Origin: Acholeplasmataceae bacterium
Lineage (GTDB): Bacteria; Bacillota_I; Bacilli_A; Izemoplasmatales; Hujiaoplasmataceae
Reading direction: 5' to 3'
Assembly (NCBI GenBank): GCA_012515085.1
Contig: JAAYZB010000087.1
Coordinates: forward strand, 1-34,568
DNA: 34,568 nt
The notes below the pieces were generated by a model. It did not search any database. It was not told where the DNA came from and saw nothing but the letters and a program-made list of their open reading frames with translations. Shown here piece by piece: positions 8,140 to 32,319 of this stretch (positions are counted from its first letter, which is position 1; each line of letters opens with the position of its first letter). The position numbers and the translations under genes are program-made.

Positions 8140-8353
8140 ATAAATCAAACGATGACATGGAATAGTACGTTTAGGTGTTGAAAAAAGCGACCTTGTGGCC
8201 GGTGAAAACAAGGCAACCACAAACCGAATGGACCATGGAGTGATGCTAATCCCATCCGTTTGCCGCGTTAAGGCGATGAGTGCCAACAAACATTTGTTGG
8301 AATAAAGGTGGTACCACGAGCAAATCGTCCTTTTCGAAGGACGATTTTTTATA
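8140..8353 (+). promoter_or_regulatory. T-box leader controlling trpS
   Basis: AAAGGTGGTACCACG T-box (about 8304-8318), terminator AAATCGTCC-TTTTCG-AAGGACGATTTTTT (about 8322-8351), plausible TGG (Trp) specifier at 8229-8231 in CCGAATGGACC. Confidence 0.9.
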
Positions 8354-8367
8354 TTTAGGAGGTCATT

Positions 8368-9360
8368 ATGAAACGCATCGTATCCGGCATCAAACCCAGT
8401 GGAACGCTAACTCTTGGCAATTATATCGGCGCGATCCGCCAATTCGTTCAACTCCAACAGACCCTATCGGACACGGAGTTCTTTTTGTTCGTCGCGGATA
8501 TGCACGCTATCACCGTCGAACAAGATCCCGCGCAACTCAAAAAGCACATTCGGGAAATCGCGGCGATGTATCTTGCCGCGGGTTTGGATCAAGACAAAAC
8601 CGTGCTATTTATTCAGTCAGAGATCCAAGAGCACGTCGAGCTCGGATATTTGTTACAATCCCTCACCTACATGGGCGAACTTGAACGGATGACTCAATAC
8701 AAAGACAAAGCCAAGAAACAAGAAACCGGAATCACATCCGCCCTTTTCACTTATCCGGTCCTGATGGCAGCGGATATCATTTTGTATGATGCCGATTATG
8801 TACCGGTCGGAGAAGACCAAAAACAGCATTTGGAAATCACCCGCGACATCGCAACCCGTTTTAACAATCGGTATGGATCATTCTTTAAAATCCCCGAGCC
8901 GATTATCCCTAAAATTGGAGCTCGAATCATGGATTTACAAAATCCCGAACAAAAGATGAGTAAGTCGTCCTCATCAGACAAAGGTTATATTGCCTTACTC
9001 GATGATCCGAAAGTCATTACAAAAAAAATCAAATCCGCGGTAACAGATTCCTACGGCAAGGTGCAATATGATCCCATCAATCAACCCGGGGTTGCCAATT
9101 TGCTACAAATATATGCCACGTTGACAAATCAAGAAATCGACACTATTGTCGATCAATATCAGACCTTGGGATATAAAAATTTCAAAGAAGACTTGGCTGT
9201 TGTGGTCGTTGATACTCTCGTTCCAATTCAAAAAAAATATCAAGAAATCCTAGCATCCAATCTTTTGGACCATATTTTGGATCAAGGGAGAACTCGAGCT
9301 CAAGAAATCGCCGTGAAAAAACTAACAAAGTGCAAACGTCTTATCGGTCTTGGACGATAA
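8368..9360 (+). CDS. trpS: Tryptophanyl-tRNA synthetase
   Basis: SGIKPSGTLTLGNYIGAI signature; MSKSSSSDKGYI (KMSKS loop); preceded by a T-box with a Trp specifier. Confidence 0.96.
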   Translation: MKRIVSGIKPSGTLTLGNYIGAIRQFVQLQQTLSDTEFFLFVADMHAITVEQDPAQLKKHIREIAAMYLAAGLDQDKTVLFIQSEIQEHVELGYLLQSLTYMGELERMTQYKDKAKKQETGITSALFTYPVLMAADIILYDADYVPVGEDQKQHLEITRDIATRFNNRYGSFFKIPEPIIPKIGARIMDLQNPEQKMSKSSSSDKGYIALLDDPKVITKKIKSAVTDSYGKVQYDPINQPGVANLLQIYATLTNQEIDTIVDQYQTLGYKNFKEDLAVVVVDTLVPIQKKYQEILASNLLDHILDQGRTRAQEIAVKKLTKCKRLIGLGR

Positions 9361-10083: not shown

Positions 10084-10197
10084 TATAACCACCCCATATC
10101 CCATATTTTATCATAAGTATGGATAAATCAAACGCGTTTTTTTGGCTTTCCACCATGCAAAACGCTGATAATAGTTTAGAAAAGGAAGGAAAGGACC

Positions 10198-10692
10198 ATG
10201 TCGTATGTGATTGAGGCCATCATCGAAATACCGATGGGGACACAAAACAAATATGAAGTGGATAAAAAGAATAACCGAATCAAATTAAATCGCGTCTTGT
10301 ATTCCAAAATGACTTATCCCGCTGAGTATGGTTTTATCGAAAACACGTTGGCAGACGACGGTGATCCGTTGGATATCCTAGTGCTCGCAACCACCCAAAC
10401 TTTCCCGGGTTGTGTTGTGGATGCCCGGGTTGTCGGTTATTTGGATATGATTGACTCCGGAGAACCCGATGAGAAAATCATTGCGGTCGTTGATGCGGAC
10501 CCGCGTTTTGAAGATATCCACGACATTCACGACATCAAAGAATTACAATTGAAAGAAATCTAACTTTTCTTTCGCAACTATAAAGAATTGCAGCCCGCTC
10601 ATCATGTCGACGTATTCGACTACTACCCGAGAGAAGCGGCTATGAAATTGATTGATCAATGTCATAAGGCCTACATCGCCGCCTCTGAATAA
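10198..10692 (+). pseudogene. ppa: Family I inorganic pyrophosphatase interrupted by an in-frame TAA (10561-10563)
   Basis: First ORF (10198-10563): IPMGTQNKYEVDKKNNRIKLNRVL...YPAEYGFIENTLADDGDPLDILVL...DADPRFEDIHDIHDI...LKEI. Same frame after the TAA: LFFRNYKELQPAHHVDVFDYYPREAAMKLIDQCHKAYIAASE, stop at 10690-10692, matching the family I C-terminus. Confidence 0.85.
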
Positions 10693-10741: not shown

Positions 10742-11950
10742 GTGGTCTTATTGTTGATCATCATCTATATTGCTTTCATATCGCTCGGTCTTCCTGACTC
10801 GCTTTTTGGGGTTTCATGGCCATTGATGCATGTGGAGTTCGGACTTGATAACGCCCTTGCAGGCGTGGTGACGATCATCGTTATCGTGGGAACCATCGTC
10901 ATGAGTCTTTTGACAGGAAAGCTAATACGAAAGATCGGAACAGGGAAACTGACCGCTTTGTCGGTGTTGCTGACCGCTTTGTCCTTAATTGGTATTTCTT
11001 TTTCGCCCACCATTTGGTTCATATTACCCTGTTCAATTCTCCTAGGAATCGGGGCGGGAGCTGTCGATTCTGCTCTCAACCATTTTGTCGCAACCCATTA
11101 TCGCCCACAACATATGAATTGGCTTCATTGCTTCTGGGGAGTGGGCGTCACCGTCAGTCCTCTCATCATGTCTGCCTTTTTGGTCGATAATGGTAATTGG
11201 CGAGACGGATATTTGACGATTGGGTTGATTCAAATTTTTCTAACGCTCATCTTATTGATTTCTTTACCTTTATGGAAACAAAAAAAACCGCAATCGCCAT
11301 GGGTGAATGGCTCCCAACCCGAGCAGTCCATTGAAGAAAAAAAGGTATTGAGCAGATCGCCATTCCGACCTTTGAAAATTCGAGGTGTCACTTTTGCCAT
11401 TCTCATCCTAGGCCTTTATTGTGCTTGGGAAAATATTCTCGGTACATGGGGTGCTACCTTTTTGATTCGCACCCGCTCTGTGGATCCCGCAATGGCTGCT
11501 CGTTGGATCTCGTTCTATTACGGCGGGATCATGGGTGGAAGATTTATCGCTGGATTTCTCTCTTATAAGGTAAATGATAAAACACTGATCCGCGCCGGAA
11601 TCGGTTTGGCATCGTTTGGAGCATTGATCTTGCTACTCCCTCTTGGAAAAGTGACGACCTTTATTGCTTTATTATTGATAGGATTGGGTTTTGCGCCGAT
11701 TTTCCCGAGTTCGATTCATGCCACTGCAGATCGTTTTGGCAAAGAAGCCGCACCCGATATCGTCGGATATCAAATGGCAGGCGCTTATTCTGGGATCCTG
11801 ATCTTGCAGCCAATTATCGGTTGGGTTTCCTCGAAAACAACCTTTGCCATCTTGCCTTATTTCTTCATCGGCTTTGCCCTGATATTATTCATTCTGACGG
11901 AGCGCTTGAATCAGACGATATCACAACCGCTCGCTTCCATCGGTCAGTAA
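10742..11950 (+). CDS. Major facilitator superfamily transporter
   Basis: 402 aa polytopic, GTG start after GAGGAG; MFS-like loop GKLIRKIGTGKLTALS and 11-12 hydrophobic segments. Confidence 0.82.
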   Translation: MVLLLIIIYIAFISLGLPDSLFGVSWPLMHVEFGLDNALAGVVTIIVIVGTIVMSLLTGKLIRKIGTGKLTALSVLLTALSLIGISFSPTIWFILPCSILLGIGAGAVDSALNHFVATHYRPQHMNWLHCFWGVGVTVSPLIMSAFLVDNGNWRDGYLTIGLIQIFLTLILLISLPLWKQKKPQSPWVNGSQPEQSIEEKKVLSRSPFRPLKIRGVTFAILILGLYCAWENILGTWGATFLIRTRSVDPAMAARWISFYYGGIMGGRFIAGFLSYKVNDKTLIRAGIGLASFGALILLLPLGKVTTFIALLLIGLGFAPIFPSSIHATADRFGKEAAPDIVGYQMAGAYSGILILQPIIGWVSSKTTFAILPYFFIGFALILFILTERLNQTISQPLASIGQ

Positions 11951-29976: not shown

Positions 29977-32319
29977 CTATTGATAGTTCAAATTATTCGT
30001 CCAAACAAAATCGATTGGAAATGCTTCTTCGAGTAATCGTTGAAGGTCGGGATTGGGACACGCTTTCGCTTCCCCTTTGGGCCCAAACACCAACCGGTGA
30101 AGTTGATGTATGTCTTGCATCGCCCAAGCCATGTTGTTTAGCATTATCGTCGGAAAAGTTGTCTCCGCGACCGTCCATGATTGAAGTGCAGGGCATTGTT
30201 TTTTGACTAGTGGCCAGATTTCTTTGATGAATAATGGCCAATTCACAACTTTGAAACTGGCATATTGATCTGTCATTGATGCAGGAATGTACTTGAGATT
30301 ATCATGAATTGAATCCTGATATCGAGCGGGCAACAACAATAACGATTTATGATGCTTCTCCAACAATAAAGGGAATGCCGCCACAATTGATTGACGATTT
30401 CCGGCAAATTCGTGAATCAAGCATTCCTCGCTCTCTCGTTCCAGTCGAAGAACGACATAAGCACTGATTTTTCCTTGTTTCTCTATGATTTCCAATGCAT
30501 GATCCACCATCATTCGCGGAATCAGCGTTCCTTTGATCAATCGTTGCATCGACTCAAGTGTTCGTTCGTAACGAAATGGTTCGGATTCTGACAATTGAAA
30601 TATGGTTGGCAAATCTTGTTCTTGATAATCTCGAATTATGACGGCATCTGTTTTTTTCATCACAGAAGGATCCATCATATACCCCTTCACATGCCCGACG
30701 CGAGTCGCCCCAAAACGTTCATAGAGCGATCCTTCTCCGGATATGATCGCCAAGCTGATTTGCTCGCTAAGCATCTTCGTTTCCGCCATTTTTAGCAATG
30801 CGGAAGCCAATCTGCGGCCTTGATAGTCTTTTCTTGTACAGACAGATCCAATCGATCCCACCTGCAAATATGCGTCTCCAAGATGAAGGCTCGCAGGATA
30901 ATAGCTGACTAAAGAAAGTACTTCTTCGTCTTTTGTTGCGACAAACATTCGCTCTTGATTTGCTTTTCCAAGTAATAAGGGATACTCGCGATCCATGGCT
31001 TCCTTGAATGTTTCCGATGCCAAACGAATCGCTCCGTGATACTCTTCCTCCCGACAAGGGTGAAAAGCGATAGGGGCAGTCATTTTATCGATATAATTGG
31101 CATAATCAACCATGGTCTTTCTCTTTCGAGACTCTTCGGCGGCAAAAGCTAATAAATGGCTCGCTATTGACGCATCCAAATCAGCTTTATCACGATTGGC
31201 ATCCGTTTCTATGAAACCGATAAAAGCCTCCATGATCCCTTGATCGCCACCACCATGACCCGTTTCGCCTGGATCGCAGTGCTTCGTTTCAATGACGCCT
31301 TTTCCGAATTGGATCAATTCCAATTCGCTTTTTTCCAGATGACCACGGATTTCTCCCAGAGTTCCCATCAGTTTGATCGTTCTTGTGTTCTCTTCAGTAA
31401 AGGCCGTCATTGTAAATGCAACCGTCACTTCATTCTCAAACTCAATGATGGTCACTTGATGATCGACGACATCGTTGTCATTGTGATAAACACAGCGTCC
31501 ATAGGGTCCGTTTTTTAACGCTGCGAGGAGCGATTCGTCAGTCATTTGGTTTGAAACGGGCAGTTTCATCCAAATTGGTGCCTTTAAATAGACTTTTGGC
31601 GCATAAAATAAGCAGGTGTCTTTCACCGGGCAACCATCCATGCAGAAAGGTGGGCTACCTTTCGGCGCATTGGATTCTTTATAGTGAGTCAACTTTCCAA
31701 GCGAAGATACTTGTTTGATTTTGCTGTTAGAAAGCCAAATCATCAGGTCCAAATCGTGACAAGATTTGGCGAGCAACATCGGTGCCGATTTCTTTTCATT
31801 GTGCCAGTTTCCCCTCACATAACTGTGAGCATGATGCCAATAGGATACGTTTTCGTTATGTTGGATCGTCATCAATTTTCCAATTTTTCCGTCATCCAGC
31901 CATGCTTTGATTTGTGAAAAAAACGGCGTATAACGCAAGACATGTCCAATCATCATCTTTCGATTCCATTGCTTTGCCTTCTCTCCAAGAAGCAGACAGT
32001 CTTCCGGGGTGACAGCCATTGGTTTTTCCAAGAAGATATCATATCCGAGTTCCATCGCTTTTAAAGCCGGCGCAACATGCAAGGTATCTTGGGTACAGAT
32101 AAAACAAGTATCGGCCATTTTGGGAGAAGCCAATATCTCTTGATCCGTCGGATATTGCTTATCGATAGGTATCTGGTGTTGATAACTAAAATAAGCCCGT
32201 CTTTCGAGATCAGGCTCGGCAACCGCCACAAACCGAATCGCTTCCGGATGCTTTAATCCGTATTCGCCGTAGACACCAATGCCTCTGGCGCCTGCGCCAA
32301 TTAAGATTGCTGTGATCAT
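29977..32319 (-). CDS. Fusion: N-terminal Gfo/Idh/MocA oxidoreductase plus C-terminal Eis-like GNAT acetyltransferase region
   Basis: N-terminal AILIGAGARGIGVYG nucleotide-binding motif, FLEKPMAV, and FCMDGCPVKDTC. GNAT region from about residue 413 (about 31083 downward): VGSIGSVCTRKDYQGRRLASALLKMAE. One uninterrupted 780-aa ORF. Confidence 0.85.
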   Translation of the reverse strand: MITAILIGAGARGIGVYGEYGLKHPEAIRFVAVAEPDLERRAYFSYQHQIPIDKQYPTDQEILASPKMADTCFICTQDTLHVAPALKAMELGYDIFLEKPMAVTPEDCLLLGEKAKQWNRKMMIGHVLRYTPFFSQIKAWLDDGKIGKLMTIQHNENVSYWHHAHSYVRGNWHNEKKSAPMLLAKSCHDLDLMIWLSNSKIKQVSSLGKLTHYKESNAPKGSPPFCMDGCPVKDTCLFYAPKVYLKAPIWMKLPVSNQMTDESLLAALKNGPYGRCVYHNDNDVVDHQVTIIEFENEVTVAFTMTAFTEENTRTIKLMGTLGEIRGHLEKSELELIQFGKGVIETKHCDPGETGHGGGDQGIMEAFIGFIETDANRDKADLDASIASHLLAFAAEESRKRKTMVDYANYIDKMTAPIAFHPCREEEYHGAIRLASETFKEAMDREYPLLLGKANQERMFVATKDEEVLSLVSYYPASLHLGDAYLQVGSIGSVCTRKDYQGRRLASALLKMAETKMLSEQISLAIISGEGSLYERFGATRVGHVKGYMMDPSVMKKTDAVIIRDYQEQDLPTIFQLSESEPFRYERTLESMQRLIKGTLIPRMMVDHALEIIEKQGKISAYVVLRLERESEECLIHEFAGNRQSIVAAFPLLLEKHHKSLLLLPARYQDSIHDNLKYIPASMTDQYASFKVVNWPLFIKEIWPLVKKQCPALQSWTVAETTFPTIMLNNMAWAMQDIHQLHRLVFGPKGEAKACPNPDLQRLLEEAFPIDFVWTNNLNYQ

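Follow-up and report, generated by a model that had tools for sequence, protein, structure and literature searches.

A private in-frame TAA in the soluble family I pyrophosphatase gene of an Acholeplasmataceae bacterium

Described systems closest to the locus

Family I soluble inorganic pyrophosphatase (PPase), represented by the Pfam profile PF00719, is the described enzyme closest to the product of the locus considered here. The Escherichia coli member serves as the reference for its active site and for the residue numbering (Y141/K142 and the other positions given below). The locus resembles this family in that all 14 catalytic positions checked are present when the frame is read past an internal stop, and differs from it in that a TAA at codon 122 truncates the protein before Tyr128/Lys129. 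It is also comparable to a recent nonsense pseudogene or a consensus error, with which it shares a single private lesion and the retention of both the downstream frame and the natural stop. With regard to decoding, UAA is reported to be the bacterial stop with the least readthrough; it can nevertheless be misread by Gln, Tyr and Lys tRNAs, and a C at position +4 raises readthrough in yeast (PMC5289835).

The pyrophosphatase frame and its internal stop

The window, that is, the whole 34,568-nucleotide stretch analyzed, corresponds to contig 27 of a draft genome that comprises 252 contigs and 1.49 Mb and is 91% complete. The following features were placed at the PPase gene (ppa).

10184..10194, + strand: likely ribosome-binding site GGAAGGAAAGG, 5' of the ATG at 10198 (sequence inspection only)
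10198..10563, + strand: ppa ORF (family I inorganic pyrophosphatase), 121 aa as read up to an in-frame TAA (ORF reading, PF00719)
10561..10563, + strand: in-frame TAA at codon 122, a Lys position (AAA/AAG) in all 34 Bacilli relatives aligned (codon alignment)
10564..10692, + strand: continuation in the same frame, a PPase C-terminus of 42 codons that includes the NYK motif (Y128, K129), followed by the natural TAA (frame, alignment)

Reading of the frame confirmed what the first-pass annotation had described, namely a PPase frame at 10198-10692 that is split by a TAA: the ATG at 10198 is followed by 121 codons, the TAA at 10561-10563, 42 further codons and the natural TAA at 10690-10692, and neither a further frameshift nor another stop occurs in this frame between the internal TAA and the natural end. 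The same annotation had regarded the downstream part as a good family I C-terminus, and the full read-through frame indeed aligns with positions 1-152 of the 153 in PF00719 (E = 1.1e-56), so that the conserved continuation is not due to chance. A PF00719 profile search of the genome, which is 91% complete, recovered the ppa locus (2.2e-56, with one TAA inside) as its sole match.

Twelve of the 14 active-site positions checked lie upstream of the stop and are intact, the residues identical in the alignment being those of E. coli E20, K29, E31, R43, Y51, Y55, D65, D67, D70, D97, D102 and K104. The remaining two, Y141/K142, align to Y128/K129, both of which are encoded 3' of codon 122, so the earlier claim that truncation removes the Tyr-Lys catalytic pair holds. 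All 14 positions are invariant across 35 aligned relatives. Decoded by table 11, the product is without the equivalents of Y141/K142; a protein of 121 aa that lacks Tyr128, Lys129 and the C-terminal helix should be inactive. That the short product, or an enzyme assembled from two pieces, is functional would be in keeping with the 12 positions that precede the stop; however, the invariant pair is missing from the short form, and no ATG is present between the stop and the pair, which leaves no plausible second cistron bearing it. A functional product of either kind is accordingly rated as most improbable.

The gene order trpS, a small divergent gene, ppa and an amidohydrolase gene is conserved in most of the nearest relatives, which are metagenome-assembled genomes (MAGs) titled Bacilli, Tenericutes or Candidatus Izemoplasmatales bacterium. 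In the window, a gene for an MFS transporter (10742-11950) starts 50 bp after ppa and separates it from the amidohydrolase gene. At the relatives' loci the amidohydrolase gene mostly follows ppa directly and no match to the transporter is found, while the nearest homologs of the transporter (56-57% identical) are located on other contigs in other genera; it thus looks like a lineage-specific insertion. Two additional features of the window are a T-box leader (RF00230, 101.9 bits) at 8143-8335, immediately 5' of the gene for tryptophanyl-tRNA synthetase at 8368, and an ORF of 780 aa at 29977-32319 whose N-terminal part appears by eye to be Gfo/Idh-type oxidoreductase-like and its C-terminal part acetyltransferase-like.

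The stop site among relatives

A PPase match was obtained in 107 of the 149 genomes searched (106 relatives and the genome of the window), and among these 107 a TAA inside the match is confined to the window's genome. The few other matches with internal stops contain TGA only and belong to distant class members at 34-44% identity. The codon alignment at the stop comprised 35 relatives, of which 29 belong to the same family, five are further Bacilli and one is a distant Parcubacteria MAG. The site is occupied by Lys in all 29 family members and all five further Bacilli (25 AAA, 9 AAG), and by GTG in the Parcubacteria MAG. The first-pass annotation had assumed an ancestral Gln codon (CAA) altered by a C-to-T change and had proposed an alignment with close relatives as a check; this alignment returned Lys rather than Gln, and the proposal fails because AAA or AAG stands at the site in all 34 aligned Bacilli. 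The TAA would most parsimoniously be a private A-to-T change from a Lys codon.

In one relative of the same order (G066:C59:2969-3777), the PPase match falls into two pieces, residues 4-100 and 119-160. The gap of approximately 390 bases between them is suggestive of an insertion within this gene. A phage or viral origin of ppa was considered and rejected: phage records contain no close relative (best match 46% identity), and none is present in viral contigs.

Age of the lesion

The two portions of the gene, residues 1-121 and the tail after the stop, were compared by a branch test in which a protein tree of 30 family members was kept fixed. The window's own terminal branch accounts for 0.160 of a tree length of 4.086 (3.9%) in residues 1-121 and for 0.229 of 6.021 (3.8%) in the tail, and it is the fourth longest in both partitions. 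No branch-specific rate excess was therefore detected in the tail on this 30-member tree, although the test is coarse, as the tail offers only about 38 comparable codons. Because the tail takes the same share of the branch as the rest of the protein, it shows no evidence that constraint has been relaxed. Of the 38 nucleotide differences between the tail and that of the nearest relative, 27 fall at third codon positions. Between species, synonymous sites have reached saturation, and a tail long left untranslated would therefore be expected to have decayed. What characterizes an ageing pseudogene, relaxed constraint and additional lesions 3' of the stop, was not found. Judged from the sequence, the lesion would thus be very young, not real, or followed by a tail that is still translated.

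Decoding of the internal TAA

The last of these possibilities, in which readthrough of UAA yields some full-length enzyme, draws on the constraint in the tail, on the C that follows the stop and on the known misreading of UAA by Gln, Tyr and Lys tRNAs together with the +4C effect in yeast (PMC5289835). Programmed readthrough is recognized by a stop that is conserved along with a constrained tail, whereas no relative shares the TAA and a Lys codon takes its place. Moreover, UAA is the least leaky of the bacterial stops (PMC5289835) and the commonest in this genome, closing 116 of 220 matched genes (70 end in TGA and 34 in TAG). A readthrough stem-loop was rejected, as the sequence 3' of the stop has no folding advantage over shuffled sequence (z = 0.25, with 113 of 200 shuffles folding at least as well) and no stimulatory RNA structure was found there. 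Readthrough, which the first-pass annotation had listed as an option, is favored by the intact tail alone; with a normally used stop that no relative shares, no TAA-decoding tRNA found in the 91%-complete genome and a downstream fold that does not exceed shuffles, it is quite unlikely, and nothing suggests programmed decoding. The more specific proposal that some full-length soluble PPase made in this way tunes soluble versus membrane-coupled pyrophosphate hydrolysis is less probable still.

Recoding of TAA, either genome-wide or by a suppressor tRNA, has a practically negligible probability, and no positive support for it was found. A genome-wide code change was rejected, being contradicted by the 116 of 220 genes that end in TAA and by the lack of any other convincing mid-gene TAA in 360 kb surveyed. 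A suppressor tRNA was likewise rejected. Among 38 tRNA places, only one (C113:601-649) overlaps a TTTA-R anticodon-arm pattern; it reads CT-TTT-AA, and its stem and loop identify it as tRNA-Lys(TTT). None of the 10 directly readable tRNAs is a suppressor, and a non-exhaustive search of the 91%-complete genome found no tRNA with the anticodon TTA. Release factor RF1, assigned from its sequence by eye, is present, which also speaks against recoding. The incomplete genome yielded no RF2 even though TGA closes 70 of the 220 matched genes; most relatives have two release-factor genes, and the missing RF2 is probably an assembly gap.

Assembly error or recent mutation

The locus is very probably an ordinary soluble family I PPase gene that carries a private single-base nonsense change, either a consensus error or strain variant, or else a mutation of very recent origin. 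Of the options that the first-pass annotation had favored from the conserved downstream frame (an error, a very recent mutation or readthrough), the first two fit best. In both cases a single base would have turned a Lys codon into TAA in a gene that is otherwise an ordinary ppa.

The background of such lesions was surveyed by comparing 1371 mechanical ORFs (not annotated genes) of a complete relative (G026) with 360 kb, approximately 24% of the genome, which yielded 259 non-redundant homologous segments and 81,738 aligned positions. The stop in ppa is the sole convincing mid-gene stop in the 360 kb; the remaining stops lie at alignment ends or in a single partial match that is weak (33% identity). 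The comparison also showed one possible frameshift (L080 5557-5887), where a short gene may depart from the frame of a G026 ORF. A random single-base change in these genes creates a stop in approximately 4.8% of cases, and one stop per roughly 82,000 codons would therefore take just about 20 base errors at random across 245 kb, or about 1 in 10,000 bases.

Such a modest error rate is compatible with an intact real gene whose base at 10561 is either miscalled in the consensus or drawn from a minority strain. The draft state of the assembly in 252 contigs, the private nature of the change and a fully constrained tail with no other lesion point the same way, whereas the absence of any second such lesion from the 360 kb surveyed indicates an otherwise clean assembly; the chance of this explanation is put at nearly even. 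The other explanation is a real and very recent nonsense mutation that inactivated the soluble PPase and left pyrophosphate to be hydrolyzed by a membrane PPase. The first-pass annotation had raised a second PPase elsewhere in the genome and named a search for ppaC or a membrane PPase as a check. The membrane enzyme was found, as an uninterrupted frame of 708 aa (G000:C18:432-2444), and occurs in 82 of 91 genomes searched; a family II PPase as backup was rejected, there being no PF02833 match in the window's genome. The intact membrane PPase, the absence of a family II match and a tail that has not yet decayed are all consistent with a real mutation, in which case pyrophosphate would be cleared by the membrane enzyme. 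Nevertheless, every same-family genome that is at least 90% complete keeps the soluble enzyme, nearly always beside a membrane PPase, so that a real stop would be unusual; this argues against easy loss. A real mutation is accordingly held as a tentative reading, at somewhat under an even chance.

Implications

The locus has little import beyond annotation. A real stop would offer a snapshot of the first step in the loss of the soluble PPase, in a lineage that possesses the membrane enzyme as well. An erroneous base at 10561 would instead caution against calling a gene lost on the strength of a single position in a draft assembly.
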